Shown here in pieces: positions 32,807-62,804 of a DNA stretch of 64,000 nucleotides (positions are counted from its first letter, which is position 1; every line of letters begins with the position of its first letter). This DNA is from Candidatus Saccharimonadota bacterium (GTDB lineage Bacteria; Patescibacteriota; Saccharimonadia; Saccharimonadales; Saccharimonadaceae), in the NCBI GenBank assembly GCA_017510425.1, contig JAFWNJ010000014.1, positions 37,304 to 101,303 on the forward strand. Reading direction: 5' to 3'. The position numbers and the translations under genes were made by a program. Below the pieces are notes generated by a model. That model worked only from the letters and a program-made list of their open reading frames with translations. It was not told the origin of the DNA and made no database searches.

Positions 32807-34291
32807 ATGTTTGTAGATACAGCCAAAGTGAGTTTAAAAGCGGGTAAAGGCGGAGACGGTGCCGTCTCTTTTCGTCATGAAATCTATATTCCGAAGGGTG
32901 GTCCTGACGGTGGCGATGGTGGCAAAGGCGGCGACATTATTTTCCGAGCCGACCGCAACACTAATACATTGGTCGACTTTCGCTTTACGCCAATACTGAC
33001 CGCAGAGGATGGCAAGAACGGCTCCGGCCAGCGTTCCGCCGGCCGCTCCGGCAAAGACCTCGTCGTCGACGTCCCTGTCGGCACTGTCGTGTATAAAGTC
33101 AGCGAATTAGGTCCTTTTGAGACCATTCGCGACAACGGGAGCGAACTAGCGAGCGAGCCCCGTAACGACGGGCGCGAGCGAAGCGGGTCGAGAAAGGACC
33201 TAATCGCTGACTTAACGCATGATGGTGACGAGGTTGTCGTCGCTCACGGTGGCTCCGGTGGCTTCGGTAACGCCCATTTTAAATCCAGCACCCGCCAGGC
33301 CCCTATTATCGCCGAAGTCGGTGAACCCGGCGAAGAATTCGAGGCCGAACTCGAACTTAAATCCATGGCCGATGTGGGCCTGGTCGGCCTGCCAAATGCC
33401 GGTAAATCTACTTTTCTTTCCGTGGTGTCGAATGCTAAACCCGAAATCGCCGACTATCCCTTCACTACTATTACCCCGAACTTAGGCGTTGCGACTGTTG
33501 ATGACCATGATCTATTAATTGCCGATATTCCGGGTCTGATCGAAGGCGCCTCTGAGGGTAAAGGCCTCGGCCACGATTTCCTTCGTCATGTTGACCGCAC
33601 GACGGTACTGCTTCATCTAATCGATGTCTATAATGACGATGCCGGCGAAGCCTATCAAACCATCCGCAATGAACTCGAAAAATATTCAGATCTCGCCGCC
33701 CGCCCCGAGGTTGTAGCACTGACTAAGTGCGAGGGTGTGGACGAGGATATTATTAAAATGCAAATGTCTTCCATTCTCGCCAAGAACCCCGCCGCCAAAA
33801 TTTTCGCCATCTCGTCCAGCGCCCATCAGGGCTTAACGGAATTATTGAGGGAGCTGAAGCGGGTTTATTTTGAGAGTAAAAGGCAAGTTCGAGAAACAGC
33901 TCATAAGGCATCAGCGACATCTTCTTCTGAGACCCTTTCGCGACAACGGGAGCGAACGGAGCGACTGAGCCCCGTAACGACGGGCGCGAAGGAGCGTGTC
34001 GAAGAAGAACGATGGCGTGATGCCGATTTACCTGTTATTTCGCTTGCCTCAGATGTCCTGAAGGACACCTGGCGAGTCGAAAAACTAGATGACGACCATT
34101 TCAAGGTCACCGGCGAGAAAATCGAAAAATTCGCCCGCAAAACTGACTTAGGTAACTACGCCAGCCTTAACCGCCTCCGCGACATCATGAAAAAAATGGG
34201 CATTCGCGCCGAACTCACCACCCAAGGCGCCAAACCAGATTCGGTCATCCAGATTGCAGGTAAAGAGTTTACTCTGGTCGAAGATTGGTAA
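32807..34291 (+). CDS. obgE: GTPase Obg/CgtA with two palindromic-element insertions
   Basis: 494 aa against ~430 usually. Obg glycine-rich fold first (KGGDGAVSFRHE, PKGGPDGGDGGKGGDI), then G1 GLPNAGKSTFLSV, G2/G3 region and DIPGLIEGASEGKGLG, then the C-terminal OCT domain. Two insertions explain the extra length: one inside the Obg fold (residues ~98-135, SELGPFETIRDNGSELAS onward) and one in the linker before OCT (residues ~368-405). In the first, the conserved Obg text DLIADLT lies in the second arm, and the first arm is its inverted copy. TATAAT ends 6 nt before ATG. Ribosome-assembly GTPase. Confidence 0.93.
   Translation: MFVDTAKVSLKAGKGGDGAVSFRHEIYIPKGGPDGGDGGKGGDIIFRADRNTNTLVDFRFTPILTAEDGKNGSGQRSAGRSGKDLVVDVPVGTVVYKVSELGPFETIRDNGSELASEPRNDGRERSGSRKDLIADLTHDGDEVVVAHGGSGGFGNAHFKSSTRQAPIIAEVGEPGEEFEAELELKSMADVGLVGLPNAGKSTFLSVVSNAKPEIADYPFTTITPNLGVATVDDHDLLIADIPGLIEGASEGKGLGHDFLRHVDRTTVLLHLIDVYNDDAGEAYQTIRNELEKYSDLAARPEVVALTKCEGVDEDIIKMQMSSILAKNPAAKIFAISSSAHQGLTELLRELKRVYFESKRQVRETAHKASATSSSETLSRQRERTERLSPVTTGAKERVEEERWRDADLPVISLASDVLKDTWRVEKLDDDHFKVTGEKIEKFARKTDLGNYASLNRLRDIMKKMGIRAELTTQGAKPDSVIQIAGKEFTLVEDW
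33097..33213. repeat. Palindromic element 1, in frame in obgE (Obg fold)
   Basis: Arm AGTCAGCGAATTAGGTCCTT (33098-33117) is mirrored by AAGGACCTAATCGCTGACT (33194-33212) with one base missing. The core between has CGCGACAACGGGAGCGAAC and GAGCCCCGTAACGACGGGCG. Confidence 0.85.
33907..34024. repeat. Palindromic element 2, in frame in obgE (linker)
   Basis: Arms GGCATCAGCGACATCTTCTT and its imperfect mirror ending GGCGTGATGCC. The core repeats CGCGACAACGGGAGCGAAC and GAGCCCCGTAACGACGGGCG of element 1 but is read in another frame (LSRQRERTERLSPVTTGAKE). Confidence 0.85.
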
Positions 34292-34317
34292 AATAGATAA
34301 CTAATTAGATAGATTTT

Positions 34318-34367
34318 AGGCGGGTGACGGTGCTGAAGGGGGGAAGAAAGCACCGGCAGATCCGCCT
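34318..34367 (+). terminator. Hairpin after obgE with asymmetric internal loop (no U-tract)
   Basis: AGGCGG and CCGCCT, then GGTGAC opposite GGCAGAT, then CGGTGCT/AGCACCG. The bulge GCA followed by G-A opposite G-A is kink-turn-like. The same motif recurs in elements in tdk and the cysteine desulfurase gene. Confidence 0.55.
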
Positions 34368-34382
34368 GAATTGTAATATGGT

Positions 34383-35462
34383 TTAATGTATATAGTTTAA
34401 GTAAGCTGCCGAGCTGGCCGGAATAGTTGAGCGAATCACGCGGTAAGGAATGCCGTAGTTCATCTCTGTCGCCACGATAGATCCGTCCGGATTCACTGAT
34501 TCCACATAACCCACGTGGCCATACCAACCACCATTGCTCTGAAACACCGCACCCGGTGCAGGATTATGGTCTACCAGATAGCCAATTGCTGCCGCACGAA
34601 CACCCCAAGTGTTCGCATTGCCAAGCGATGCCGGCAAATCTTGGCGCATATACCAAGCCCACTGAGTACACTGCCCACGCCCATAAGGACCACCTAAATC
34701 GTAGAAGTAGCCCACCACTTCGATATTCTGTCGCTCCGAGGTGCTACCGAGATAGGAATAAGTATAAACTGGCCTTACGATAACTGGCGGCACATATTCA
34801 GGGCGCTCAGTTTCCGGTAGGGACCCATCTTTAATTAGAATCCGATTCCCTTCGGCGATACCAGAAAGTTCCAAATCATTTAGGGCAATAATCTCTTCAG
34901 AGGTAGAACCGTATTTCTCGACAATCGATTCAATTGTGTCATCAGATTTTACCGTATACACAATACCAGGCTTACTTGGGATATAGAGTACGTCGCCAGC
35001 TGAGACATCAGTATTCTTGCGGTTGTTTGACCAGCGAATCTGATCGGTCGTCACGCCGTATTTAGAAGCGATTTGCTCCATCGATTCGCCCTCGGCGACA
35101 GTATACTCAATCACGCCTCTAGAACCGGTAACAGTGGTAATATTAGGCTTCTCCGGCTTCCCGGCTAGAGTAATACCAGCATTATACATAGTGTTGGTTA
35201 TCACGTAGTTCGATGCCACATCCTGCGCACTCGCGAGGCTCAGAGCATCGGATAGGTCAGCCACCACATAAAGCTCAGATAACTGGTCGACCGAGACTTT
35301 ATAATCATTGGCCGCAAAAGAATCCAGACTCAGATTGATATCGCGATTTTGCTTATCAATCGACCCGATTAAGACTAAAACCAGCGTTACGAAGCCAACC
35401 AAAAAATACGGCAATATATTGCTTAAATCTTTTAAATGAATTCTATTCTTTTTTCTTGTCAT
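34383..35462 (-). CDS. LysM-CHAP cell-wall hydrolase, membrane anchored
   Basis: 359 aa. N-terminal helix ILPYFLVGFVTLVLVLIG, then two LysM modules (EYTVAEGESMEQIASKYGVT and VYTVKSDDTIESIVEKYGST), then a C-terminal CHAP domain with catalytic Cys in YGRGQCTQWAW and His in YGHVGYVESV. LysM binds GlcNAc chains; CHAP acts as amidase or endopeptidase. The start overlaps the stop of the RuvX-MltG gene by 4 bp, so the two wall enzymes are coupled. Confidence 0.9.
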   Translation of the reverse strand: MTRKKNRIHLKDLSNILPYFLVGFVTLVLVLIGSIDKQNRDINLSLDSFAANDYKVSVDQLSELYVVADLSDALSLASAQDVASNYVITNTMYNAGITLAGKPEKPNITTVTGSRGVIEYTVAEGESMEQIASKYGVTTDQIRWSNNRKNTDVSAGDVLYIPSKPGIVYTVKSDDTIESIVEKYGSTSEEIIALNDLELSGIAEGNRILIKDGSLPETERPEYVPPVIVRPVYTYSYLGSTSERQNIEVVGYFYDLGGPYGRGQCTQWAWYMRQDLPASLGNANTWGVRAAAIGYLVDHNPAPGAVFQSNGGWYGHVGYVESVNPDGSIVATEMNYGIPYRVIRSTIPASSAAYLNYIH

Positions 35463-36958: not shown

Positions 36959-36969
36959 TTGGACTATAG

Positions 36970-43735: not shown

Positions 43736-45793
43736 CTATTCCAGAACCGCCTTAATCCTTCTTACTCCAGCCGACGATGACTCTTCCTTTTTAATTCGGA
43801 ATTTTCCAATCACTCCCGTATGTTCGACGTGCGGCCCACCACAGACCTCGCGCGAAATTGGATTCTCGAAATCGCCAATTGTATACACGATCAATTTCTC
43901 AGGGTACTTATCCCAGAACTGCCCATGTGCTTTCAATGTTTCTCGAGCATATTTTTTATCATACTCATCGTGCACTACTGGCAAATCTGCTTCAATCCAT
44001 TCATTAACTTGGTCTTCGACCGCCTTCTTCTCTTCGTCTGTCATCTTATGGTCAAGATTAAAATCAAATCTTAACCTCTCGGCGGTGGTGTTCGAGCCTT
44101 TCTGGACGATGTCTGGCGAAACCAGCTTCTGCAATGCCGCTAGTAAGAGGTGTGTAGCAGTATGATACTTGATGGTCTGCTCGCCGTGATCTTCCAAGCC
44201 ACCCTTAAACATGCCTTTAGAGGCAGTCTGTGAGCGCTCACGCTGCTCGGCCAGAGCCTGCTCGAATTCTTTGATGTAATCTGGAGAGAGGTCAATACCT
44301 TCACGATAACACTCTTCTACCGAAAGTTCCATCGGAAAACCATAAGTGTCCTGGAGCTTAAATAAGTCATATCCGGACAATCTAAACGGGACTTCTCGGG
44401 GACGGGGTTCCTCGCGCCCGTCGTTACGGGGCTCGGACCCCTCGCCACATCGACCAAAGGTCGTCCGTCTGTCGTCGCCTCGACACGAAACGCAAGCGTT
44501 TCGTCTGCTCGGCTCCTTCGACGGTCGGTCGTAACCTCCGGAGCGCCCCGAGAAGTCCGTTCTCGATTGTCCAGACAGCTTATGTAGCTCCTTCAGCCCA
44601 CGATTTAGCGTTTTCCGAAAAGCATTTTCCTCGCGCAGCATTACATCGAGTGCTACCTCGCGGTGTGTCAAAATCGAATCCGGCAAATCACGGTAAATCT
44701 CAGACACAATTGGCACAATCTCCGCTAAGAAATTGTCAGAAATCCCGAGGTCCAGTGCTCTCAGAATCGCTCGGCGTAGCAATCTTCGCATTGCATACCC
44801 TTGAGTCTTGTTAGATGGCACTAACCCTTCCGCTGCCAGCAGATAAGCACCGCGGATGTGGTCAGCAATCACCCTCATCTCGTCGGTATTGTTGTCGTAA
44901 GATTTGTGCGAAATTTGTTCCAGCTTCTCAATAATCGGCTTCATTAGTGAGATCCTAAACACATCAAAACTATCAATTGAAGCGGCAGTAATTCGCTCCA
45001 GTCCCGCACCGAAGTCGACATTCTTCTTCTCTAGCTCAGAGAAACTCCCATCTTCGTTGCGGCGGTACTGCATGAAGACCTGATTACCAATCTCCATAAA
45101 CCTCGCCCCGTCGCTGGCCGGGTGCGCCAGTCCATATTTCTCTACATCCTGTTTATCCTCACCGAAGTCATAGAATACCTCCGAATCTGGCCCACAGGGG
45201 TCGCCAATCGGTGTTGTCTCGCAACCACCACCCCGCGACCACCAGTTCTCGTGATCATCATAGAAGAAAATCCTCTCGCCTGGCTTCACGCCGCGTTTGT
45301 CGCCATCTTTTGCCGAACCGATTTCGACAATTTTCGCCTCAATTCCAGCCTCATTAAAGACCTTTTGCCAGATCTCGGCAGCTTCCGTGTCGCGCGGTAT
45401 GCCGTATTTGTCATTGCCGATAAAACAAGTCACGTAAATCCGCTCCGGATCCAATCCGACTTCCTTAGTCAGAAACTCAAAGAAATTTCGAATCTGCTCC
45501 TCCTTGAAATAATCGCCCAGTGACCAGTTCCCGAGCATTTCAAAAACCGTCGTGTGCCTAGGGTCTCCCACATCCTCAATATCCTGCAATCGCAGCGAAG
45601 GCTGAGAATCACAAAGCCGAGTCCCCTCCGGGTGCTCCTTCCCTAGTAAATAAGGTAGCAGCGGCTGCATACCCGAACCGGTAAATAAGGTCGTCGGATC
45701 GCCCTCCAGTACCAGAGGTGCAGGGCTAATTATCTTGTGCCCCTTCGACACCTGAAAATTTAAAAATTTTTGTCTAACAACATTTGCATCCAT
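43736..45793 (-). CDS. alaS: Alanyl-tRNA synthetase, short form, with palindromic insertion
   Basis: 685 aa from ATG 45793 (TATAAT ends 7 nt upstream). The catalytic core includes GDPTTLFTGSGMQPLLPYLL and the editing domain near ATHLLLAALQKL ends in REVCGGPHVEHTGVIGKF. The C-Ala (DHHA1) domain is absent, ending shortly after. A ~67-residue insertion (GQSRTDFSGRSGGYDR... EEPRPREVPFRLSG) sits between LSG and GYDLFKLQDTYGFP, a point where other AlaRS have only a short loop. Charges tRNA-Ala. Confidence 0.93.
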   Translation of the reverse strand: MDANVVRQKFLNFQVSKGHKIISPAPLVLEGDPTTLFTGSGMQPLLPYLLGKEHPEGTRLCDSQPSLRLQDIEDVGDPRHTTVFEMLGNWSLGDYFKEEQIRNFFEFLTKEVGLDPERIYVTCFIGNDKYGIPRDTEAAEIWQKVFNEAGIEAKIVEIGSAKDGDKRGVKPGERIFFYDDHENWWSRGGGCETTPIGDPCGPDSEVFYDFGEDKQDVEKYGLAHPASDGARFMEIGNQVFMQYRRNEDGSFSELEKKNVDFGAGLERITAASIDSFDVFRISLMKPIIEKLEQISHKSYDNNTDEMRVIADHIRGAYLLAAEGLVPSNKTQGYAMRRLLRRAILRALDLGISDNFLAEIVPIVSEIYRDLPDSILTHREVALDVMLREENAFRKTLNRGLKELHKLSGQSRTDFSGRSGGYDRPSKEPSRRNACVSCRGDDRRTTFGRCGEGSEPRNDGREEPRPREVPFRLSGYDLFKLQDTYGFPMELSVEECYREGIDLSPDYIKEFEQALAEQRERSQTASKGMFKGGLEDHGEQTIKYHTATHLLLAALQKLVSPDIVQKGSNTTAERLRFDFNLDHKMTDEEKKAVEDQVNEWIEADLPVVHDEYDKKYARETLKAHGQFWDKYPEKLIVYTIGDFENPISREVCGGPHVEHTGVIGKFRIKKEESSSAGVRRIKAVLE
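44373..44575. repeat. Palindromic element 3, in frame in alaS (with nested hairpin)
   Basis: Arm GGACAATCTAAACGGGACTT mirrored by GGACAATCGAGAACGGACTT (reverse complement). The core is that of the mnmA elements (GGAGGTTACGACC, GAGCCCCGTAACGACGGGCG), split by a ~85-bp insert that contains its own palindromes (CGAAACGCTTGCGTTTCG). Confidence 0.85.
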
Positions 45794-46137: not shown

Positions 46138-47415
46138 CTAGCAAATAATGCCGCCACCCAGACAAATTTTACCGGAATAGAAGACTGCGCTCTGTCCGCT
46201 GGCTGGCCGTTTGATTTCGTTCTCAAAGTGTAGCGTTTCGCCGTCAAAAGTCGCCGGAATCAGTGGCGCCCGGTGCCTGAGACGAACGTGGATAGTGTCG
46301 AGAGGTCCGAATATGCTGTTTTGGGGACGGGGTTCCTCGCGCCCGTCGTCACGGGGCTCGGACCCCTCGCCACCTCGGTCGTAACCTCCGGAGCGCCCCA
46401 ATACAGCATATTCGGACCTCCTCAGCAACATATCACGTAGTCTCAGCTCTGTTACCCAAATCGCCTCATGATTCAAGTTTTTTGACACATATACGATGTT
46501 TTTATCAATATCCTTTTTCACCACATAATACGGCATTCCGTCGTTGACTACGCCTTTTTCGCCATCAAGATATAGCCCGTGCCTCTGCCCAATCGTATAG
46601 AAAATCGCTCCCTCGTGATATCCAAGTACCCTGTCGCTTTCAATTTCGCGAATTTCACCTGGCTTTACATCGATGTATTCCTTCAAAAAGTCCCTCATCC
46701 CCACCTCACCCACGAAACAAACTCCCATGGACTCCTTCTTATAAGCATTATGTAGCCCCTTCTCGGCCGCCAGTTTCTTGACTTCCGGCTTCAACATATC
46801 CCCAATCGGGAACAAAGTATGCGCCAATGCCTCCTCTGATATCCGATACAAGAAATACGTCTGATCCTTATTTTCATCGGTGGCTCTTGCAAGTATGGGT
46901 GGGAACAATCCGGAAGTATTATAGTGGGGCGCTCCGGAGGTTACGACCGAGGTGGCGAGGGGCGGCTCGCCCGTAACGACGGGCCGAGCCGACCCCGTCC
47001 CCAATATGATACTTCCGGATTGCTCAACGCCTACCCTTGCATAATGCCCCGTTGCAATAAAATCAGCCCCCGCCTCCATCGCCTTTTCGTAAAACAGCTT
47101 GAATTTGATTTCCTGGTTGCACATAATGTCCGGATTTGGCGTATTGCCTTTACGAAATTCAGAGAGCATGTAATCGACGACTTTCTCGCGGTATTCTTTC
47201 TCGAAATCCCACACCTGAAAATCAATCCCTAGTTTCACTGCGACTCTCTTAGCATCGGCCAGATCTTCCGCCCAAGGACATTTCATCCCAGGTAGGTCTT
47301 TAGACCAGTTTTTCATGTAAACGCCAACCACATTGTAGCCCTGCTCCTTCAAAAGCAGCGCCGCCACGCTCGAATCCACGCCGCCACTCATGCCGACATA
47401 AACCGTCTTAGTCAT
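46138..47415 (-). CDS. mnmA: tRNA 2-thiouridylase MnmA with two palindromic insertions
   Basis: 425 aa versus ~360. YVGMSGGVDSSVAALLLKEQ PP-loop, catalytic Cys in DIMCNQEIKF and ESMGVCFVGEV, and C-terminal RHRAPLIPATF, QSAVFYSGKICLGGGII. Two extra segments account for the length: after ARVGV (EQSGSIILGTGSARPVV onward, ~43 aa) and after RLRDMLL (RRSEYAVLGRSGGYDRGG onward, ~40 aa). Thiolates U34 of tRNAs with sulfur from the cysteine desulfurase gene just upstream, which it overlaps by 8 bp. Confidence 0.93.
   Translation of the reverse strand: MTKTVYVGMSGGVDSSVAALLLKEQGYNVVGVYMKNWSKDLPGMKCPWAEDLADAKRVAVKLGIDFQVWDFEKEYREKVVDYMLSEFRKGNTPNPDIMCNQEIKFKLFYEKAMEAGADFIATGHYARVGVEQSGSIILGTGSARPVVTGEPPLATSVVTSGAPHYNTSGLFPPILARATDENKDQTYFLYRISEEALAHTLFPIGDMLKPEVKKLAAEKGLHNAYKKESMGVCFVGEVGMRDFLKEYIDVKPGEIREIESDRVLGYHEGAIFYTIGQRHGLYLDGEKGVVNDGMPYYVVKKDIDKNIVYVSKNLNHEAIWVTELRLRDMLLRRSEYAVLGRSGGYDRGGEGSEPRDDGREEPRPQNSIFGPLDTIHVRLRHRAPLIPATFDGETLHFENEIKRPASGQSAVFYSGKICLGGGIIC
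46302..46420. repeat. Palindromic element 4, in frame in mnmA (3' part)
   Basis: Arms GAGGTCCGAATATGCTGTTT and GAGGTCCGAATATGCTGTAT (reverse complement) enclose the shared core GGGGCGCTCCGGAGGTTACG onward. Confidence 0.9.
46904..47024. repeat. Palindromic element 5, in frame in mnmA (middle), opposite orientation
   Basis: Arms CAATCCGGAAGTATTATAGT and CAATCCGGAAGTATCATATT (reverse complement) enclose the core of element 4; the first 37 core bases are identical, inserted the other way round. Confidence 0.9.
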
Positions 47416-48643
47416 TTGCCAGCTCCTTCTTAGCCGCCGCTGACTTATTAATCCGCTCCCTCTCGCCAGCCACTACTTCATTGATAATCTTTGCCGCCTC
47501 ATGAATTTGAGCCTCATCATTAGTCTCACCGAAGGTAATCCGAAGTGAGCCAGCGATTTGCTCGTCGGTTAGCCCGATAGCCTTTAGCGCATGTGACCTG
47601 ACACCCTTAGAAGCGGCGCAGGCGGCGCCAGTCGCGACGTAGACTTCTCTTTCCTCTAGTAAAAACACTAGTCGTTCCGCATCCAGTCCCTTGAAACACA
47701 CTACTACGAAATTATCCAGCGAATGCCTGTCGTTAATCAACTCATAATCGGATAGCTCAGATAAAAAGCTCTTCTTCCACGCCGCATATTTCTTCCGGTT
47801 GCCATTCAGGTGCTCCTTTGTCAAAAGAATCGCCTTGGCAAACCCAATTACCCCAGGCACATTCTCCGTACCGCTCCTGAGGCCGTTTTCCTGCCCACCC
47901 CCAAAAGTCAGTGGGTGTAACCTGACATCGTGTGATACATATAATGCGCCGACCCCTTTCGGCCCGTAAACTTTAGCGGCATTTAGTGTCAATAAATCCA
48001 CCCCCAGTCTGGCGACATTGATATCGAGCAAATTTAGCGCCTGTGAGGCATCAGAATGCAACAACAATTGCCGTTTTAGCCCCCTCTTCATCCGGTCGAG
48101 TTTCACTTCCCGAATAATCTGCGACACCTCTGCTATCGGCTGAATCGTCCCCAGCTCATTATTTGCGAGCGACACCGAGATAAGCTCCGTCTCATCCGTA
48201 ATTTTCTTGCGTAAATCCGATAAGTCAATCAATCCATTCAGCAAAACATCAATCGCCTGCCCGCCGTATCGCTCCGCCACCCTCCTGACCGAATCATGTT
48301 CAGTCACGAGATACAACACGGACGGGTGACAGCTGTGAGGAGGGTGCCCTACTGAGTCTTGCGAAGCGGGAGAGGAGAGTGACTGACGGGATTCGTCCAA
48401 AGATATAGCAGTAAACGCTAAATTATTCGCCTCAGTTGCCCCAGCGGTTATAATCAAATCAGAGGTCTTCGCCCCAATCGCATGTGCAATTACGCCTTTT
48501 GCCGACTCATATTCAGAAGCCATCTTTTTCGCCGGTAAATACGCCGCCGACGGATTAAAAAAATCCTCCGTAAAACACGGCTCCATCGCTTGTAGCACTC
48601 TTTTGTCTACTGGCGTAGCTGCAGCATGGTCAAGATAAATCAT
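47408..48643 (-). CDS. Cysteine desulfurase (NifS/IscS-like)
   Basis: 411 aa. PLP enzyme: MIYLDHAAATPVDKRVLQAM, ITAGATEANNLAF, LLHSDASQALNLLDI, the Lys in LLTLNAAKVYGPKGVG and the Cys loop TGAACAASKGVRSHALKA. Provides sulfur to MnmA; overlap of 8 bp supports this. Contains an insertion after AISLDESRQSL (~25 aa) from a palindromic element. TATAAT ends 6 nt before ATG. Confidence 0.93.
   Translation of the reverse strand: MIYLDHAAATPVDKRVLQAMEPCFTEDFFNPSAAYLPAKKMASEYESAKGVIAHAIGAKTSDLIITAGATEANNLAFTAISLDESRQSLSSPASQDSVGHPPHSCHPSVLYLVTEHDSVRRVAERYGGQAIDVLLNGLIDLSDLRKKITDETELISVSLANNELGTIQPIAEVSQIIREVKLDRMKRGLKRQLLLHSDASQALNLLDINVARLGVDLLTLNAAKVYGPKGVGALYVSHDVRLHPLTFGGGQENGLRSGTENVPGVIGFAKAILLTKEHLNGNRKKYAAWKKSFLSELSDYELINDRHSLDNFVVVCFKGLDAERLVFLLEEREVYVATGAACAASKGVRSHALKAIGLTDEQIAGSLRITFGETNDEAQIHEAAKIINEVVAGERERINKSAAAKKELAND
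48320..48398. repeat. Palindromic element 9, in frame in cysteine desulfurase gene
   Basis: GGACG GGTGACAG opposite CTGACGGGATT CGTCC; inner part low-complexity G/A. The GGGTGAC strand matches the hairpins at 34318 and 62691. Confidence 0.6.
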
Positions 48644-49685: not shown

Positions 49686-50532
49686 TTTTCGTGGTCTCCT
49701 TCTCTATAATTTTGAACTCTGACCCAAGTTTTGCGGCTAGCCAGTTGGCGATGTCGCTCACATGGGCCGGTTCATTAATTATACCACGAAATGGCTCTGG
49801 AGTCAAGAACGGCGCATCTGTTTCCAGTAGGATTCTCTCTAGTGGCGGGGTTGGCAGTGTCGAATAGGTGGCCAGCCCATTCACTCCTACATAGAAATCA
49901 GTTTCGTTTAAAATTCGCTTCAGAATCTTCTTGCTATCAGTAAAGGAATGCACTACGCCACGCACCTTCGGGAAATTAGCCACCACTGGGAAAAAGTCTT
50001 GGAAGGCTTCCCTGACATGAAACGACACGGGTAGGTCATTATCAGAGGCCAGCTGCAGCATCTGCTCGAATAACCTTATCTGCGCCTCACGATTATAATT
50101 AGGATAATGATAATCCAGCCCGACCTCACCGATAGCTACAGGGCGGGTGGCTGAAATCTGTATTCTCGGATGTATAAAGTTCTGATTTGAATTTTCAACA
50201 CGTATATTCCTGACGGCCCGGACAGGTTCGCCCCGGAGGGGCGGTTCTGCCCGCGGCCCAGTGTATGACGTGCTTGAAAATTCAAGTCCCACATCCGAAA
50301 AAATAGGTTCAGCCAGGCCCCGCCCTATAGCTTCGGGGTGAATGCCGTAGGTCCAGTATACATTATCATGTTTACTCGCGAACTCGCGCGCAGCTAGAGA
50401 ATCCTCATGTGACGTGCCGATACAGATAATCTTCTCTACTCCCGCTGCATGCGCCCGCTGAATCATCTCTTCCGCCTGCTCAGCGGTGAAAAACTCCCTA
50501 TCATGCAAATGACAATGCGTGTCGATCAACAT
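49660..50532 (-). CDS. tatD: TatD-family metal-dependent deoxyribonuclease with palindromic insertion
   Basis: 290 aa. MLIDTHCHLHDREF metal His pair, YGIHPEAIG, VAIGEVGLDYHY Glu, PVSFHVREAF, GVVHSFTDSKK, LLETDAPFLTP. A stretch of ~50 residues (GLEFSSTSYTGPRAEPPLRG onward) lies between GIHP and EVGLDY and comes largely from a palindromic element. DNA repair/turnover exonuclease. TATAAT ends 6 nt before ATG. Confidence 0.93.
   Translation of the reverse strand: MLIDTHCHLHDREFFTAEQAEEMIQRAHAAGVEKIICIGTSHEDSLAAREFASKHDNVYWTYGIHPEAIGRGLAEPIFSDVGLEFSSTSYTGPRAEPPLRGEPVRAVRNIRVENSNQNFIHPRIQISATRPVAIGEVGLDYHYPNYNREAQIRLFEQMLQLASDNDLPVSFHVREAFQDFFPVVANFPKVRGVVHSFTDSKKILKRILNETDFYVGVNGLATYSTLPTPPLERILLETDAPFLTPEPFRGIINEPAHVSDIANWLAAKLGSEFKIIEKETTKNGRKLFRI
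50184..50288. repeat. Palindromic element 6, in frame in tatD
   Basis: Arms GATTTGAATTTTCAACACGT and GACTTGAATTTTCAAGCACG (reverse complement). The core (GCCCCGGAGGGGC) differs from the obgE/mnmA cores, so same design, different core. Confidence 0.8.
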
Positions 50533-50640: not shown

Positions 50641-52242
50641 ATGAATAAAACCCTCAAGTTCTTAAGTGTTCCACTAGCTGTTACGGTTATATTTGGTACA
50701 CTATTATCATCTTATAATGTCTCTGCCGATGATGTAGTAGACGAAATCAACATCACAGTCCCAGTCTCCTGTACCATGTCTGGTACTGGACAAGATTCCC
50801 ATAATGCTACCATCAATAATGGCCAATCTAACTCCACTATTGGTGAAACGACCATGAAGGTTTTCTGTAATGATAATAATGGTTTTGCTATCTATGCTAT
50901 TGGTTATACTGATAATACTGATGGTAAGAATGTACTAACTAGTTCTACTTTGGGAGATAATTATAATATAGTAACCGGTACCGCTACAGGACCAGTAGGA
51001 AACACAGATATATCACAGTGGGCCATGAAACTATCTACTATTACCGACCCAACCCCTACCTACCCCATCATCATAGCGGGTAGCAGTGCTGATACCGATA
51101 GAGAACAGGGTGATCCAGACTACAGCACTTTTCAGGAAGTCCCAGACGACTACACTCTAGTAGCTAAGCGTACATCTGGTACCGATATCAACCCAGCCGG
51201 CCAATCTACTGCCGAGGGCGCCACCCTAAAATCCACTTATCAAGCCTACATCAGCAAAACCCAACCCGCCGGCACCTACACCGGCCAAGTCAAATACACC
51301 CTCGTCCATCCGAATACAGCACCTGCACCAACCAAACCAACCGCCATAGAATCTGCCATGCAGTTGGCTGGCAAGACTAAAATCAACGGTTACTACAAAA
51401 TGCAAGATTTGAACAGTGCCATTTGTAATAGCGTAAACATAGAAGCTAGTAGTACAACCGAGCTAATTGATGTTCGTGATAATCAGGTTTACAAAGTTGC
51501 TAAACTCAAAGATGGCAACTGTTGGATGGTGGAAAACCTTAATATCGCTGGCGGCACCGCTCTATCTAGCACCGACACCGACTTTGATACAAATTATACA
51601 CTACCTACCACTGACGGTTGGACTGTAACCGATGGTAAGCTAGTCCTCCCAGCCTCTGCTACAAAAAATCCAGATGATAACCATCTCACCGATGATACTC
51701 AATTCTATAACAACAACTACGCTTATGTATTCAATAGCGGCAACAAGACAGACTGTGGCGAAAGCGGTCAAGACACTCCATGTTATTCCTACTACTCATG
51801 GGATGCTGCTACTCTTGGCTCTGGTAGAAGCATTAGCACAGACAACACCGATGCGGCCTACAGTATTTGCCCAAAGAACTGGAAACTACCAACCAGTAGA
51901 ACCACTAGTGCTGCCAACTGGCAAACTGAATCAGATTTTTATGCATTTGCACGTCAATATGGTTTAGACGACAACTCAATTACATCGTTTGACGAGGCTT
52001 ACGATACTAGATTCTATGACCAGGCTGGTCCCGGCACCACTCCAGACTTTCTACTTGCTGGTTATTACGTTTATGGATCGTTCCAATATGATGGTAGCGC
52101 TGGTTATTACTGGTCTGCTTCTTCCTACTCTAGTCCCAATTGGGCCCGTTTCCTGTACTTCAACTCCGGATTTATTAGCTCTGCCAATTCTGATAACCGC
52201 AGTTATGGCTACTCCGTCCGCTGCCTCCTCAGAACCAACTAA
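50641..52242 (+). CDS. Secreted Fib_succ_major-domain surface protein (paralogue A)
   Basis: 533 aa. Signal peptide (LSVPLAVTVIFGTLLSSYNVSADD), a shared N-terminal domain (DEINITVPVSCTMSGTGQDS, CNDNNGFAIYAIGYT), then a C-terminal Fibrobacter-succinogenes-major-type domain (VRDNQVYKVAKLKDGNCWM, SICPKNWKLPTSR, GYYWSASSYSS, YGYSVRCLLR). No anchor visible. Probably displayed or released at the surface. Two relatives lie at 56242 and 58963. AAAGG-type ribosome site. Confidence 0.85.
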   Translation: MNKTLKFLSVPLAVTVIFGTLLSSYNVSADDVVDEINITVPVSCTMSGTGQDSHNATINNGQSNSTIGETTMKVFCNDNNGFAIYAIGYTDNTDGKNVLTSSTLGDNYNIVTGTATGPVGNTDISQWAMKLSTITDPTPTYPIIIAGSSADTDREQGDPDYSTFQEVPDDYTLVAKRTSGTDINPAGQSTAEGATLKSTYQAYISKTQPAGTYTGQVKYTLVHPNTAPAPTKPTAIESAMQLAGKTKINGYYKMQDLNSAICNSVNIEASSTTELIDVRDNQVYKVAKLKDGNCWMVENLNIAGGTALSSTDTDFDTNYTLPTTDGWTVTDGKLVLPASATKNPDDNHLTDDTQFYNNNYAYVFNSGNKTDCGESGQDTPCYSYYSWDAATLGSGRSISTDNTDAAYSICPKNWKLPTSRTTSAANWQTESDFYAFARQYGLDDNSITSFDEAYDTRFYDQAGPGTTPDFLLAGYYVYGSFQYDGSAGYYWSASSYSSPNWARFLYFNSGFISSANSDNRSYGYSVRCLLRTN

Positions 52243-53932: not shown

Positions 53933-53940
53933 TTTAGCTC

Positions 53941-55863
53941 TCAAACTAAGTTCCGATTCTCCCGCTTCCTTTTTATCGGGTCGAGCTGTCTTTTGCGCAG
54001 GCGCAGAGATTTAGGTGTCACTTCCAGCAGTTCATCATCTAATAAGAAATCCAAACACTGTTCCAGCGATAACTGTGTGTATGGAGTCAGCTGAATCGCG
54101 CCATCCGATGCATGGGTTCGCATATTGGTGAGCTGCTTTTCGCGACAGATATTGATGTCGAGATCGTCCTTCTTGTTCGAAAGCCCCACAATCATACCCT
54201 GATACACTGGCACCTGTGGCGGAATATATAAAATCCCTCGTGCCTGTGCAGCATCCAAAGCATACGCCGTCGATACCCCCGATTCAAACGAAACCAACGC
54301 CCCATTGCGCTCGGGCTTATATTTCCCTTCCACCGGGCGATATCCGGCCGCAATCGAAGACATAATCACCGTGCCTTTCGTCGCAGTGAGTAAATTATTC
54401 CTAAGTCCAATAAGAGCTGCCGTAGAAATCTCATAAACAAACCTCGTAGCTCCCGCGGCGGTAAGTTCTTGGGACTTCAGCTCTGCCTTACGCACGCCAA
54501 GCTCTTGTGATACTGCCCCCACGAATTCCGGCTCCACCTCCACCGTCAAAGATTCAATCGGCTCGCATTTTACCCCGTCAATCTCGCGGTAGACCACTTC
54601 CGGTCGTCCAACTTCCATCTCGTAGCCTTCGCGCCGCATGGTCTCAATCAGGACAGACAAATGTAGCTCACCCCGCCCCGACACTTTATACCCGAGTCCG
54701 TCAGGCTGGATCTTCAAAGCGATATTGGTTTCCAGCTCCCGTGTCAACCGCTCCGCAATTTGTCGTGAAGTCGTAAATTCGCCTTCACGCCCCTTTAGTG
54801 GTGAAGTGTTTGGCCCGATGTAGATCGATAAAGTCGGTGCTTCCAGTTCAATTCCAGGTAGAGCCTCTGGATTATCGCCGGTCGCAATCGTGTCACCGAT
54901 ATTTGCTTCTGATACTCCAGTAATCGCCACGATATCCCCCGCAATCGCTTCCGGAACCTCTTCCTTGGAAAGCCCGCGATAGGAGAAAAGGCAGTCAATC
55001 TTACCCTTCTGTTTCGCGACCATGCTTCCACTCGGGCACCGGTCGCCCGGCCCGTCGTTACGGGCGGGCTCCCTTTCGTTCGCTCCCGTCGTCGCGAAAG
55101 ATCCCTCGTCGGAAGCGTTGTTCGCTCTCAAAATGGTAACACTCTGTCCTTTCTTAAGCTTACCACTAAAAATCTTTCCAATGCAGTACTTCCCCAGGTA
55201 ATTATCTCCAGCCAGGGCGGCGACTAGCAGCTGCGCCGACTCTGCATCCGGATTTACCGAAGGTGCAGGAATATCATTAATGATTGATTCGAAAATCACA
55301 TGTAGGTCATCATCCAGCTCGGTCGTCTTGCCAGCTCGGCCTTCCCGCGCAATCGCATAATAAACTGGGTAGAAAAGTTGTAATTCGTCGGTGGCAAGCT
55401 CCAGGAACAGACTCTCAATCTCGCTTAGCACTTCATTCACCCGAGCTGCCGGCTTGTCAATCTTATTAATCACAACCACTGGCCTCAGCCCGAGGTTAAG
55501 TGCTTTCGATAGCACGAACTTCGTCTGCGGCATGGGGCCTTCCTGAGCATCCACGATCAGCAGTACGCCATCCGCCATATTCAGAGTTCGCTCCACCTCG
55601 CCTGAGAAATCCGCATGTCCCGGCGTGTCGATGATGTTAATCTTATAGCCATCATAATAAACGCAGGTCTGCTTCGCCGTAATCGTAATACCCCGCTCAT
55701 GCTCCTGGTCGCCAGAATCCATAATCAGGGTCTGCGACATCTCCGCCTGGTTATCACGAAAAGTATGCGATTGCTTCAAAAGCCCATCGACCAGAGTAGT
55801 CTTCCCATGGTCGACATGCGCAATAATCGCTACATTTCGTATCTTATCTTTGCTTAAAGTCAT
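53941..55863 (-). CDS. typA: Translational GTPase TypA/BipA with palindromic insertion
   Basis: 640 aa from MTLSKDKIRNVAIIAHVDHG (TAGAAT 7 nt upstream). G1 AHVDHGKTTL, G3 DTPGHADFSGEVER, G4 VVINKIDKP, C-terminal RGELHLSVLIETMRREGYE. An insertion of ~35 aa (ASDEGSFATTGANEREPARN onward) lies in domain II after GQSVTIL. Ribosome-associated stress GTPase. Confidence 0.93.
   Translation of the reverse strand: MTLSKDKIRNVAIIAHVDHGKTTLVDGLLKQSHTFRDNQAEMSQTLIMDSGDQEHERGITITAKQTCVYYDGYKINIIDTPGHADFSGEVERTLNMADGVLLIVDAQEGPMPQTKFVLSKALNLGLRPVVVINKIDKPAARVNEVLSEIESLFLELATDELQLFYPVYYAIAREGRAGKTTELDDDLHVIFESIINDIPAPSVNPDAESAQLLVAALAGDNYLGKYCIGKIFSGKLKKGQSVTILRANNASDEGSFATTGANEREPARNDGPGDRCPSGSMVAKQKGKIDCLFSYRGLSKEEVPEAIAGDIVAITGVSEANIGDTIATGDNPEALPGIELEAPTLSIYIGPNTSPLKGREGEFTTSRQIAERLTRELETNIALKIQPDGLGYKVSGRGELHLSVLIETMRREGYEMEVGRPEVVYREIDGVKCEPIESLTVEVEPEFVGAVSQELGVRKAELKSQELTAAGATRFVYEISTAALIGLRNNLLTATKGTVIMSSIAAGYRPVEGKYKPERNGALVSFESGVSTAYALDAAQARGILYIPPQVPVYQGMIVGLSNKKDDLDINICREKQLTNMRTHASDGAIQLTPYTQLSLEQCLDFLLDDELLEVTPKSLRLRKRQLDPIKRKRENRNLV
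55023..55117. repeat. Palindromic element 7, in frame in typA
   Basis: Short arms TGCTTCCACTCGGG / CGCTTCCGACGAGGG (reverse complement); core CGCGACGACGGGAGCGAAC and CCCGTAACGACGGG as in obgE elements. Confidence 0.75.
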
Positions 55864-56241: not shown

Positions 56242-58677
56242 TTAAGTAGTATCAAAAACGACTGAAGGAAGATTGATGGCCGAATTGATAACTGGCCGAG
56301 CTACACAACGAATAGAACCACCATCTGAACGATATAATATGGATGATGGATGTGAACTGGAGTCCGAAATGGAATAGTTTGCATTTGCCCCTATTTCGCC
56401 ATATGTAGCTTTTGTCCAATACCAGCCATCACTTCCAATGTTAATTGGTGTAAAGGCAGAATAGTATCCACTAGGCACCAAATAAAATGGATTTTTCCAT
56501 AATGCTCCACCACTATTTAATCTCTGGCTGTTACCATCTAACTCATAAGGGTACTGTAAGAAGTTGTACCTTTGCCACAATGAATAGAATGTGTCTTCTC
56601 CTTCCCCAGGTAAAGGCAGAGTCCAACCGGCCGGACAAATTGATTGGTCGACTAACCTCCATTCCCAACTAGTTTCAGCATTTGAAGCCGCGGTTGCCGC
56701 AGGCCAGTTATAATAATTACCTATATGATACTGTGGTATGCCAGTGGTGGTGGTATAGTCGGGTGTAGGGTTGATCGATTGGTCGCAAATGAGCACATTA
56801 TTACTGTGGTAACAGCTTTCCATGTAATTAAGCCAGTTATTTTTGTCACTTTCCGCACCGTTCCAATAAAGATTGCCCGGATCATAGGATACTGGATATG
56901 TAAACGATGAGTTCCAATTCCCGACATGGTCGACGGTTGCAGAATAGGTGGAGTTGTGTGGGATCCAAGATGCTGTGCTATATTGTTTCGTCGCGGCATC
57001 GTAGCCAATATCGGTATCTTCATTGGTGTATGTCTTAGTAGAATCTAAGTCTAAATCTAGGTTCTGGGTCATCCAAATATTTCCGTCAGCTAATTTAGTA
57101 ATTGTATAGAATTTGTCGTCGCGTGAGTCTCTTAAGACATATTGAGTCCCACGATTCATGGAATTTAAGACCGAAGCTCTGGATTCATTAGTAAACGAGG
57201 CAAAATCTTGCATGCAACGCACTTGTGAGATATTGGTAGCATTTGGATTACAGCTATAATTGTATGCATAGAGATCTATAGTGGTTCCGAACAATGTATT
57301 TTCATTTTGCTCGACATAATCAATAATAGCCGACTCGTCCTCTAAAAAGGTAATTCTTCCATTATCATTAAAAAACCATTTATTATACCAGGTAGTTGTC
57401 TGCGCATAAGTCCCGTTTTGTGCTATAAGGCCGCAGGTTGTAGACATAATTCCAGTATTTTCGTGCTCTGCAGCATAAATTGGGTAGAGTCTGGTATAAA
57501 AACCGTAGTCATAACCAGATTGTGCTGCGCGGTAAGAATTAATGTAGATTGTCGCCGTATCGCCATTTAGAATATATTCTTCTGTACTGGACTCATTATT
57601 GAATGGTTGAATTTTATAGTATGTTTCAGGAGGATTATTCCAATCCCCATTCCAAGTACCTTCAATTATCCCTATGCCTGCTGTATCTGCAGTAACGGCA
57701 TAATCTACCACTACCTTGATTTTGTTAGCGCCAGTAAAAGTCTTGGTTTGAAAGATCAATTCGCTATCGGTATAGGAACCATCTTGTATGCCATTGGTTA
57801 GGTTTGAAGTCTCTACGATTTCCGGCACAATAGCAATGTACTCATCAGTTATGCAGCCATTGCCATAGATTACGTGATTGCTGGTTTCTCCTCCAGCAAA
57901 GGTTAAGCCATTACCGTAAAAATTTACACCAATCTGATCAGGATGTATTGGTGTATCTGCATTGGCTGGATGAACGAGAGTGTAAATGACTTGCCCAGTA
58001 TAGGTATCAGCTTTTTGAGTCTTGCTAATGTAGGCAGCATAGGTAGAGGCAATCTTAGTTCCACCAGTATTTGCCGTCATATCAGTAGAAGAAATCTTGT
58101 GAGCGACTTTAACGTATTCATTTGGTACTACATGGTAGTCTGAGAAGGAGGCACTGGTGGCTCCTGATTCTGCTTCACTTGGAAGTGATACATTAGGAGC
58201 AGAGTCTATCACGAAGGCATTAGTGCCAGTCGTATCGCCAGAATCTTGTGTAATGGTTAGTTTCATCGCCCAGTTAGATACGTCTGGATTTCCTGCCGAT
58301 GTGGCTAATCCTGATTCTATAGCGGCATTATCACTGGCAGATGTCCCGACTAACTTATTACTATTAGTCCCACCTATCTCATCTCCTGTATATCCTGCGG
58401 CGTAGATGGAGAAGCCTGCATTATCGTTACAGAACACATGCATAGTAGTAGTACCGATATTAGGAGTATAGGTACCATTATTAATATTGGCATTATGGGA
58501 ATCCTGCCCAGTACCAGACATAGTACAGGACATAGGGACAGTGATGTTGATTTCGTCTACTGTATCATCAGCGTAAGAAGAATCAGAAATCAAGACCAAT
58601 CCACTGAGTATAGTAATAATTATTAACATTCCGGCAATTATCGGTACTGTGTTACTTCTCTTTTGTACAATCATCAC
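56242..58677 (-). CDS. Secreted Fib_succ_major-domain surface protein (paralogue B)
   Basis: 811 aa, the largest paralogue. Signal peptide (IIAGMLIIITILSGLVLIS), shared N-domain (DEINITVPMSCTMSGTGQDS), a central ~200-aa extra region (HVIYGNGCITDEYIAI onward), then the C-domain (TQYVLRDSRDDKFYTITKLA, QSICPAGWTLPLPGEGED, ending IRCVARPV). Same orientation as paralogue C, opposite to A. Central region unassigned. Confidence 0.85.
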   Translation of the reverse strand: MMIVQKRSNTVPIIAGMLIIITILSGLVLISDSSYADDTVDEINITVPMSCTMSGTGQDSHNANINNGTYTPNIGTTTMHVFCNDNAGFSIYAAGYTGDEIGGTNSNKLVGTSASDNAAIESGLATSAGNPDVSNWAMKLTITQDSGDTTGTNAFVIDSAPNVSLPSEAESGATSASFSDYHVVPNEYVKVAHKISSTDMTANTGGTKIASTYAAYISKTQKADTYTGQVIYTLVHPANADTPIHPDQIGVNFYGNGLTFAGGETSNHVIYGNGCITDEYIAIVPEIVETSNLTNGIQDGSYTDSELIFQTKTFTGANKIKVVVDYAVTADTAGIGIIEGTWNGDWNNPPETYYKIQPFNNESSTEEYILNGDTATIYINSYRAAQSGYDYGFYTRLYPIYAAEHENTGIMSTTCGLIAQNGTYAQTTTWYNKWFFNDNGRITFLEDESAIIDYVEQNENTLFGTTIDLYAYNYSCNPNATNISQVRCMQDFASFTNESRASVLNSMNRGTQYVLRDSRDDKFYTITKLADGNIWMTQNLDLDLDSTKTYTNEDTDIGYDAATKQYSTASWIPHNSTYSATVDHVGNWNSSFTYPVSYDPGNLYWNGAESDKNNWLNYMESCYHSNNVLICDQSINPTPDYTTTTGIPQYHIGNYYNWPAATAASNAETSWEWRLVDQSICPAGWTLPLPGEGEDTFYSLWQRYNFLQYPYELDGNSQRLNSGGALWKNPFYLVPSGYYSAFTPINIGSDGWYWTKATYGEIGANANYSISDSSSHPSSILYRSDGGSIRCVARPVINSAINLPSVVFDTT

Positions 58678-58962: not shown

Positions 58963-60666
58963 CTAACGGAGTATACAACGCACTAGATAGCCGCTGATCC
59001 TGCTGTCGTTATCGGCCGGATAGGCACCGCCACCCACGTCGAAGTACGCGCTGTGAGCATAGCTAACATCGTAGGCGACGGACGACCAGAAGTTGCCGTT
59101 GCCCCCGATAATGCCGAGGTTACCGCTGAAGCCGCCGGCGGGAGCGAAGTAGAGCGGAGCTGACCAGACAGTAGAAATATCACTAAATCCATAGTTGTTA
59201 TTATCCCAACCGTATTCAGTCCAGAGATTAGCAAAATCTCCTTCTGATTGATCTGTATTATTATTGTAATTTGCATACGGTAATGTCCAACCAGCCGGGC
59301 AGATGGATTGATGAGTCTCAGGATTGATAAGAGGAGTATCCGGATCTTCATCATCATACCCATATACGCTAGCATCATTAGAAGCGATAGCAGCTGACCA
59401 GTTGTAGTAGTTACCTAAGTGATATTGTGCCGTACCTGTAGAGCTCGTGTAGGTAGAAAGCGGATTCAGCGATTCGTTACACGATGGAGTACTGGTAGAA
59501 TAGTCACATGAACTTAAATATGCAAACCAATCCGAAGAGGCACTAGTCGTAGTATTCCAATATAGGTCTCCTGGGTCATAGGATTCTGGGGTGTTGTTTT
59601 GTTCGCAGTAACCATCTTGAGAGTTCCACGTTCCTCCTTGGCACCAGGCATGAATGTTATTAGCGGATGTTTCGTAAGTAGAGCGAATCGGAGACCAACT
59701 GGCTGTGTCGTAAGTATTAGTACTTGTATTCCAACCTAGGTCAGTATCTTCATTAGTATAAGTCCTGCTCGAATCCAAATCTAAGTCCAAGTTCTGTGTC
59801 ATCCAGATGTTTCCATCGGCCAGCTTAGACACCGTATAAGCCTTACCATCACGCTTATCCTTTAAAGTATACTGCTGCTCGTTAGTCATGGAAGTCAAAA
59901 TGGCCGATTTATTGGTAGATGAAATATCCTGCATACACTTAATATCGGTATTCGTATTGGTTCCAATCGTCGTCCCGGACGGATTGCATACTACCGGCGC
60001 CGGCGCTGTATATGGATGTACCAAAGTATACCTCACCTTACCGGTATAAGTCCCCGCAGACTGTGTCGCGGAAATCCAAGCGGCATAAGTCGTGGTGAAT
60101 GAAGATCCAATCGCGCTCTGCCCAGTAGCTGGCACCTCGGTATTGGAAACGAAAGAAGCCACCTTGGTCATCGTATCTGGCACCACATGATAAGCAGTAT
60201 AAGGCCCGTCGCTATCCTCATGTATAGTCGGCTCGTACAGTCCGCTCACCTTCGTCAGTTTCATCGCCCAATTCGAAATCGGACCCGAAGTCTGAGTCCC
60301 CGTGTCAAAATCAAGCGTAGCATCCGAATCGTGCTTCATTAGCGTATTCCCATATTCGTCATTGCTATATCCTATAGCATAAATCGCATAGCCGCCATTA
60401 TCATTGCAATAAGTATTAAACGTGGTCGTCCCAATCTCCGAATAGTAATTATTATTCATCGCCGTGGCAGTATGTTCCCCGCCGCTCGCAATCACGCCCT
60501 CCACCGAGCAGGATTCCTGTATCGTGATATTAATCTGGTCCACGGAAGTCGTATTATCATCTGCATAACAATTCCCCAAACCAAAAAACGTTGTAAAAAA
60601 TACAACAAGCCCAAAAACTTTCCAACTTTTATCCCATTTCTTGCAGTTAGATGATAACTTATACAT
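58963..60666 (-). CDS. Secreted Fib_succ_major-domain surface protein (paralogue C)
   Basis: 567 aa from ATG 60666, with GAGGT and TATAAT upstream. Signal peptide (VFGLVVFFTTFFGLGNCYAD), N-domain (DQINITIQESCSVEG, CNDNGGYAIYAIGYS), C-domain (KRDGKAYTVSKLADGNIWMT, HQSICPAGWTLPYANYNNN, DNDSRISGYLVRCILR). Same set as paralogues A and B, so a local expansion. Confidence 0.85.
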   Translation of the reverse strand: MYKLSSNCKKWDKSWKVFGLVVFFTTFFGLGNCYADDNTTSVDQINITIQESCSVEGVIASGGEHTATAMNNNYYSEIGTTTFNTYCNDNGGYAIYAIGYSNDEYGNTLMKHDSDATLDFDTGTQTSGPISNWAMKLTKVSGLYEPTIHEDSDGPYTAYHVVPDTMTKVASFVSNTEVPATGQSAIGSSFTTTYAAWISATQSAGTYTGKVRYTLVHPYTAPAPVVCNPSGTTIGTNTNTDIKCMQDISSTNKSAILTSMTNEQQYTLKDKRDGKAYTVSKLADGNIWMTQNLDLDLDSSRTYTNEDTDLGWNTSTNTYDTASWSPIRSTYETSANNIHAWCQGGTWNSQDGYCEQNNTPESYDPGDLYWNTTTSASSDWFAYLSSCDYSTSTPSCNESLNPLSTYTSSTGTAQYHLGNYYNWSAAIASNDASVYGYDDEDPDTPLINPETHQSICPAGWTLPYANYNNNTDQSEGDFANLWTEYGWDNNNYGFSDISTVWSAPLYFAPAGGFSGNLGIIGGNGNFWSSVAYDVSYAHSAYFDVGGGAYPADNDSRISGYLVRCILR

Positions 60667-60752
60667 TGGTACCTCGCTTATGCTAAATCTATTATAGCAC
60701 ATATTTTCAAAAATCAACCACATTTATTATATAATTTAAAAAAGGAGTAAAA

Positions 60753-62029: not shown

Positions 62030-62077
62030 ACATACATTATACTTGATTTTGCCATAAAAATATCCCAGATGTTTGTA

Positions 62078-62105
62078 TTGAGAAAAACAAAATATGAACT
62101 ATAAT
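62078..62105 (+). promoter_or_regulatory. Promoter of tdk, leaderless start
   Basis: TTGAGA, 16 bp, TATAAT, then 6 nt (GTAAAC) to ATG 62112. Confidence 0.75.
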
Positions 62106-62111
62106 GTAAAC

Positions 62112-62804
62112 ATGGCGAAGCTTTATTTCCGTTACGGTGCGATGGGCTGTGGCAAGACTATGCAGCTGCTCCAAGTCGCATTTAATTACGAAGAGCGCGG
62201 ACATAAGGTCTGCGTGATAAAACCAAAGACCGACACCAAGCACGGCACCAAGCTATACACTCGCATTGGGCCTGAACGCGAGACGGACGTTTGTTTCGAT
62301 CGTACCACCAATCTTTTCGACACCATTTCCGAAAAATATAACGACGTTCACTGTGTCCTGGTCGACGAGGCGCAGTTCCTAACTCCTACCCAGGTCGACC
62401 AGCTAATGGACATCACGATTAAGCTTAACATTCCCGTCATGTGCTATGGACTGCGCCTGAATTTCCGTCGCGATGACAGCGGCTTCGAAGGCGCCACGCG
62501 CCTGCTTCAAATCGCTCACGATATTGAAGAGATCAAAACTATCTGCGAATGCGGCCACAAAGCCACCTACAATGCACGGTTTCTAAACGGCAAGCTAGTC
62601 GCTGATGGCCCCGACATCCTAATCGACGACGGCAAAAGCAAGATTGAATATCGCGCCCTCTGCCCCGCATGTTATAGTAAATATTTACATGGACGGGTGA
62701 CGTCTTTGAAGGGGGTCCCCCGCGAGAGCCGAGCGGGGGATGAGAAGACGGCAGGACCCGTCCAGAGAAAGAAATTAGCAAGAACCATCAAGAGGAGCAA
62801 ATAA
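62112..62804 (+). CDS. tdk: Thymidine kinase (type II) with insertion near its C-terminus
   Basis: 230 aa from ATG 62112. RYGAMGCGKTMQLL Walker A, VLVDEAQFLTPTQVDQL, Zn pair CECGHKATYNARF and CPACYSKY, then after YLHG an extra tail RVTSLKGVPRESRAGDEKTA encoded by a palindromic element. Phosphorylates thymidine. tmk follows immediately (1-bp overlap), so dTMP to dTDP is coupled. Confidence 0.93.
   Translation: MAKLYFRYGAMGCGKTMQLLQVAFNYEERGHKVCVIKPKTDTKHGTKLYTRIGPERETDVCFDRTTNLFDTISEKYNDVHCVLVDEAQFLTPTQVDQLMDITIKLNIPVMCYGLRLNFRRDDSGFEGATRLLQIAHDIEEIKTICECGHKATYNARFLNGKLVADGPDILIDDGKSKIEYRALCPACYSKYLHGRVTSLKGVPRESRAGDEKTAGPVQRKKLARTIKRSK
62691..62763. repeat. Palindromic element 8, in frame near the tdk end
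   Basis: GGACGGG / CCCGTCC, internal loop TGA/GCAGGA, then CGTCTT/AAGACG and a GC hairpin CCCCCGC/GCGGGGG. Loop GCA-bulge as at 34318. Confidence 0.7.

Follow-up and report, generated by a model that had tools for sequence, protein, structure and literature searches.

We identified nine palindromic hairpins within protein-coding genes of a 64,000-nucleotide stretch of a Saccharibacteria genome (the window; bases 37304-101303 of contig C24 of genome G000, which comprises 840 kb in 30 contigs). Six of the nine, two in obgE, two in mnmA and one each in alaS and typA, have a structured core in common (family 1) that lies between two long inverted arms. The arms are not part of the element; they belong to the site. 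We think it likely that they were made by fold-back (template-switch) DNA synthesis, in which adjacent host gene sequence would have been copied backwards. The open reading frame (ORF) of every host gene is uninterrupted (ORF and folding analysis of the window). At least nine hairpins in open frames had been reported in a preliminary description of this DNA, and nine were found again close to where it had placed them. Its treatment of the inverted arms as part of the element had to be given up, as the arms are site-specific and, where readable, are host gene sequence.

The family 1 core, its arms and the host flanks

Thirty family 1 copies in G000, chosen from pattern and BLAST matches, were extracted and folded. 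The common fold has a long outer stem (P1), a short stem (P2), a hairpin (P3) and a further hairpin (P4) that carries GCCCGTAACGACGGGC or a close variant. Many copies also have a 2x2 GA/GA internal loop. The core is ~60-80 nucleotides (nt) long and is mostly found inside genes, and its stems covary across copies while the loop motifs are fixed. A 20-mer of the core (exact or with 1 mismatch) has 4 matches in the window, compared with 0 in 100 shuffles. The shorter core CCCGTRACGACGGGC, present in mnmA site 1 (on the other strand) and in typA, is common to all six family 1 elements of the window.

The P1 arms (~15-30 nt) are different at every locus, and each pairs with its partner in the same copy but not with the arms of other copies. 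For example, the mnmA site 2 copy (C24_83643) and copy C17_31243 are alike at 76/77 bases of the core and at 7/25 bases of each arm. Across the six pairs that can be formed from four copies of a subfamily with GGGG...CCCC ends, 62-76 of 77 core bases are alike, compared with 6-13 of 25 arm bases. Because cores that are 1/77 bases apart have unrelated arms, slow compensatory evolution was rejected as the source of the arms. Pairing was scored in 59 copies (the 30 from G000 and 29 from 27 other genomes). In 53 of these, the pairing score of a copy's own arms exceeded 10.0, the 99th percentile in a set of 1180 swapped pairs, for which the maximum was 11.5. A consensus fold of 29 of the G000 copies contains merely 11 pairs, around P4, as site-specific arms cannot be aligned.

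The origin of the arms can be read at mnmA site 2 (46302..46420, minus strand, core sense to the gene), where the arm at 46396-46420 is host gene sequence and that at 46302-46326 is its inverted copy. The MnmA proteins P0002 (90% identity) and P0003 (81%) are empty at this site, and both read RRFEYDVLGTTNIHVRLRHR at the protein level. The window MnmA reads RRSEYAVLG, followed by the core and then PQNSIFGPLDTIHVRLRHR. As P0002 and P0003 have the left-arm sequence without the right arm, we infer that the left arm is host sequence and that the right arm, its reverse complement, is new. Of 120 MnmA proteins, 117 were parsed. Among those with the left R[QR].E motif, the right-hand side carries an inverse peptide in 11 of 12 filled proteins and in 0 of 4 empty ones, and 10 of the other 101 fit the loose right-hand pattern. 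This pattern was composed after the sequences were seen, and the filled proteins may be related by descent, so that the 11 cases do not count as independent events.

At obgE site 1 (33096..33213, plus strand, sense; arms 33096-33118 and 33193-33213), the right arm codes for the conserved LIADL of Obg and the left arm is its inverted copy. The site is empty, at the DNA level, in the sister genome G086 (14 of 30 obgE loci were read; those on the other strand were left out). The host arm is on the left at mnmA site 2 and on the right at obgE site 1, and thus either flank can be the template. In a comparison directed at target-site duplications, the flanks at empty sites were found to be strongly diverged.

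Arm change, inversion and turnover between relatives

The alaS element (44372..44575, minus strand, sense; arms 44546-44575 and 44372-44401) is present in G086 with the hairpin orientation reversed and the arm sequences swapped, as is expected from inversion of the whole hairpin. Compared with the window, G086 has three arm positions changed in the same way in both arms and two more changed in just one arm. The G086 copy at mnmA site 2 also has the core in the other orientation, adjoining three inverted copies of the left flank, the first near-perfect and the other two degenerate. As a separate observation, a second hairpin, GACGAAACGCTTGCGTTTCGTGTC, is nested in the alaS insert (an element within an element), and G086 has a nested hairpin too.

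Three loops of argS are used repeatedly, by families and with arms that vary by species (30 loci read; the names argS and ileS are our reading of the sequences rather than the result of a family search). The argS ORFs listed are 544 to 727 amino acids long; five shorter ones (279-482 amino acids) were excluded as probably cut by contig ends. For orthologous inserts compared using RNAalifold, both-sided changes were identified in 11 of 44 pairs at site 3 (6 genomes; 7 of the 11 in the arms) and in 12 of 43 pairs at site 2 (5 genomes; 3 in the arms and the others in P2 to P4). We read these patterns as homogenisation of the arms in alaS and at argS site 3, with a weaker signal in the arms at argS site 2, and the opposite orientations in G086 (alaS and mnmA site 2) as inversion of the spacer.

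Turnover is documented at ileS site A, where a similar insert with changing arms occurs in G000, G060, G071, G145 and G122, other elements occur in several more genomes, and eleven genomes (including G177, G086 and G025) are empty. G025 holds GATTC-TCCT-GAATC at this site, ileS site C of G141 has a pair of arms with no core between them, and G086 is empty at both ileS sites examined. Judged from these sequences, the ileS pattern reads as loss with footprints, and insertion into small inverted repeats may be an alternative there.

Sharing of the inserts across the phylum as ordinary conserved loops, which would have told against the preliminary description, is contradicted by G086, in which obgE site 1, tatD and the cysteine desulfurase gene are all empty. 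The inserts at mnmA site 1 (46903..47025, plus strand, antisense to the gene; arms 46903-46929 and 46999-47025) and in typA (55015..55125, minus strand, sense; imperfect arms at 55103-55125 and 55015-55036) are also found in G086, and thus not all inserts are recent. The typA core is decayed in G086, and the P0003 peptide shows the other core orientation at mnmA site 1.

Possible origins of the arms

Template switching between inverted repeats, as described in the available parts of the papers concerned, homogenises arms and inverts the spacer, coding genes included (PMC8604942), and both creates and mends hairpin stems (PMC8794818). As both arm homogenisation and spacer inversion are seen here, we propose fold-back synthesis primed on the core hairpin. 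In this scheme the core would be a non-autonomous and selfish mobile unit. Either as the core is copied into a gene, or at a later time when it stalls a replication fork, the nascent strand may snap back on the core hairpin, copy 15-30 nt of its own upstream sequence and rejoin the template, which would leave an inverted arm. Later template switching would correct mismatches between the arms and invert the stretch between them. The survivors would be only those products that are in frame, free of stops and placed in tolerant loops. A further-reaching idea, which we put forward tentatively and consider rather doubtful, is that this is a new kind of mobile element: an armless structured RNA or DNA core which, on landing in an expressed gene, has the cell write the reverse complement of the target and so gains a custom stem, in frame and preferentially in the sense orientation.

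The expectation that the core would recur beyond the window was borne out. It is found throughout G000, and an exact 15-mer of it was identified in 27 of 35 further genomes sampled from the genus and in 0 of 24 taken from elsewhere in the order. When sampling was widened to 294 genomes across the order, 35 had the exact core, spread over 2 of 143 genera. Within G000, 26 of the 30 copies lie in ORFs of at least 304 amino acids (alaS was added by hand), and the remaining 4 are intergenic or past the last ORF of a contig, with no visible gene split. None of the 30 breaks a gene out of frame (ORF survey covering the 30 copies of G000; among the copies from other genomes, 6 are outside ORFs of at least 150 amino acids).

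The core also has a preferred strand. In the set of 59 copies, which was not selected by gene, 49 are coding (in long ORFs), 39 of them sense and 10 antisense (sense in 22/26 from G000, a count made by hand, and in 17/23 of the others; binomial p = 4e-5). A larger set of 102 distinct exact-core copies, in which a few genes are over-represented, includes 90 that lie within ORFs of 200 amino acids or more (66 sense and 24 antisense).

Several observations weigh against fold-back copying of the host flank. The original arm is clear at two sites only (mnmA site 2 and obgE site 1). Six of the 59 copies (alaS, L055, the window typA, L037, L041 and L043) do not exceed the swapped controls in the pairing of their arms, although for alaS and L055 this is because nested sequence shifts the arms out of the scored stretch. 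The inner arm bases GTTCATTCGAG are common to three G000 copies with different outer arms, and an obgE and an mnmA copy of G077 (L064 and L101) have the inner arms GAGRAATACCCTYGTTC in common. Thus, the core can take part of an arm with it when it moves; the data suggest that it does so in the G077 sublineage, and the obgE site 2 peptide of G003 hints at the same. In a swapped-arm test on argS, the true partner was best in 16/21 cases at site 3, 9/13 at site 1 and 4/10 at site 2, and at site 2 only 1/10 was above the 95th percentile of swapped arms; the test is weak at site 2 because orthologous arms of common descent resemble each other. At ileS site A, where both are empty, G177 retains a stretch identical to the left arm and G086 one identical to the right, and at site C the two arms each coincide in part with conserved codons; these two patterns may point to insertion into short pre-existing inverted repeats. 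The sense bias is not predicted by a purely replicative model. Finally, no mobilising gene was found in searches for Y1 transposase and reverse transcriptase (other transposase families were not searched).

An alternative is that the element acts as RNA, with its fold kept by selection, with sense or transcription-coupled insertion, and with arms maintained by compensatory selection on the helix. The covarying stems with fixed loop motifs and the excess of sense copies favour this explanation, as does the location of 49/59 copies in long ORFs, where any insertion out of frame would be expected to disappear. A further point in its favour is that reverse transcriptase matches were identified in 24 of the 37 genomes tested, the window's included (23 over the family cut-off). 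However, near-identical cores have unrelated arms, antisense copies exist, orientation flips between relatives, and no Rfam family matched the window elements. The single Rfam match in 34 kb of the window is far below the gathering score and away from the elements, and a known RNA family was rejected on this result. Carriers G086, G025, G003 and G018 have no reverse transcriptase match, and this enzyme is therefore unsupported as the mobiliser. (One match in G000, at C15:46297-47010, is within a 407-amino-acid ORF.) Overall we consider action as RNA unlikely, but since the copies favour genes and the sense orientation, a route at the RNA level or one coupled to transcription is conceivable.

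Less probable still is that the arms came first and that the core prefers the loops of short pre-existing inverted repeats, often remnants of earlier elements. The use of the same loops by different families and orientations would fit this, as would the bare arm pair of G141 and the small inverted repeat of G025 in ileS. However, empty relatives have no second arm at mnmA site 2 (protein) or obgE site 1 (DNA), and bare arm pairs are equally explicable as footprints of loss.

That the elements are ordinary palindromic miniature inverted-repeat transposable elements (MITEs) or repetitive extragenic palindromes (REPs), with arms that are terminal inverted repeats recognised by a transposase, appears very improbable. 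The scattered short palindromes, whose core is conserved across many genomes of a single genus, are in keeping with such a system, but the arms are not common to the copies. Y1 (REP-type) transposase has 0 matches in G000 and was matched in 1 of 37 genomes, in a search whose control was positive in 5 of 14 known genomes and that did not extend to other transposase families. The REP/RAYT system in particular was rejected, given the Y1 result for G000 and the cores of ~60-80 nt mostly in genes, as opposed to REPs of 20-40 bp mostly outside genes. Carriage by viruses was also rejected: the sole stretch on a viral contig (L183) is within an 881-codon ORF of a GC-rich contig and, by eye, is a chance match (it was not folded). 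Assembly artefacts around palindromes in metagenome-assembled genomes would be conceivable for a genome in 30 contigs with 5.37% contamination, but we give them almost no credence because the same in-frame inserts recur in different species whose genomes were assembled separately (typA and mnmA site 1 in G086, argS, and protein database matches).

Other window elements, host proteins and known systems

The remaining family 1 element of the window is obgE site 2 (33907..34024, plus strand, sense; arms 33907-33928 and 34003-34024). Seven of the nine hairpins had been said to have one design in common; the number is six, and a single family for all nine is ruled out by two separate designs. Family 2 is found close to the 3' end of tdk (62691..62763, plus strand) and, degraded and antisense, in the cysteine desulfurase gene (48321..48397, plus strand). 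Its pattern is GGGTGACG...GGCAGGACCC, and its layout is GGGTGACG-stem-GGGGGACCCCC-...-stem-CGGCAGGACCC; the loop motifs are conserved and the stems vary. There are 12 pattern matches in G000 (contigs C6, C10, C12, C15, C17, C20, C23, C24 and C25), and a search of 60 genomes gave matches in 14, including one (G043) from another family of the order. Family 3 is the tatD element (50184..50288, minus strand), which has 15-nt arms at both ends. Its peptide, GLEFSSTSYAGTRAEP...VENSN, turns up again in MnmA of relatives (among the 60 of 120 MnmA proteins shown). Elsewhere in the window, three large secreted-looking proteins (50641-52242, 56242-58677 and 58963-60723) are alike by eye, and a 62-bp stretch at 51602 is repeated at 53871 with 97% identity.

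The preliminary description held that the inserts add peptides at loop positions, and structure prediction for MnmA is consistent with this. In the predicted model (mean predicted local distance difference test score, pLDDT, of 70.5), both inserts (residues 139-169 and 340-369) appear as low-confidence coil with pLDDT < 50; loops 225-238 and 282-290 and the C-terminus are also of low confidence. The first insert has no counterpart in the best-matching solved chain, in which query residue 137 corresponds to chain residue 143 and query residue 176 to chain residue 145. Housekeeping enzymes of a small-genome lineage (such as AlaS, Obg, MnmA and TypA) accept inserts of some 20-67 residues, which has consequences for gene annotation and for the phylogenetic markers used in this lineage. 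Named MnmA relatives suggest that the bacterium lives in the gut.

We found no publication describing this family, by title or abstract, for Saccharibacteria or Patescibacteria or among palindromic and double-hairpin elements, quasipalindromes, inverted duplications and cases of translational bypassing (most subscription papers were out of reach). The likeness in concept to the Rickettsia palindromic elements (RPEs) that was proposed for these hairpins is upheld, in that dispersed palindromic elements lie in frame in housekeeping genes of a Saccharibacteria lineage. According to the available parts of the accounts, RPEs are short palindromic repeats found in frame in genes for conserved proteins and between genes, one tested host protein was active, terminal inverted repeats of 12 bp are listed (PMC2229807), and repeat identity is lost over time (PMC6649704). 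Like RPEs and their Wolbachia counterparts, as described there, the elements studied here are dispersed palindromes in frame within genes (26/30 copies in G000) and between genes (4/30). Unlike RPEs, they have arms that are site-unique, at least partly host-derived and complementary between species; this distinction is drawn from descriptions of RPEs and not from their sequences. Terminal inverted repeats common to copies were not found (arms 6-13/25 alike, cores 62-76/77), with the exception of the three G000 copies noted above.

Other mobile hairpin-forming elements include mitochondrial GC clusters, which merge and shuffle, and RHE (PMC4478555, PMC2800124). RHE are described as intergenic, and site-specific arms copied from genes are unmentioned for either group in the available parts of these sources. 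The coding palindromes of Nematomorpha mitochondria are similar to the elements reported here in that long inverted repeats lie in protein genes, are gained and lost, and keep their arms complementary, for which repeat conversion was proposed (PMC6649704). In what is available of that account they are described without a common mobile core, whereas a core is present here. The Magnusiomyces mitochondrial inserts, which are linked to translational bypassing, are also palindromes in coding genes, but are said, in the same partial source, to be untranslated (PMC6649704). Here, 26 of the 30 G000 copies are in open frames and none is in a visibly broken gene. A bypassed hairpin would leave the frame unconstrained; as judged from the DNA, 0 of the 30 copies appear to be out of frame.

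Coding palindromes are a known curiosity, and their spread is unexplained. In the present case the arms record the event: where readable, they show which flank was copied, the length of the copy and the later joint change, across species in the same genes. It thus becomes possible to test directly the part that template switching is proposed to play in the spread and maintenance of coding hairpins. The elements resemble template-switch quasipalindromes, as far as these are described in the available text, in arm homogenisation, spacer inversion and the creation of stems by reverse complementation (PMC8604942, PMC8794818). Such quasipalindromes are local hairpins, whereas those described here occur with a dispersed, conserved core in dozens of places.

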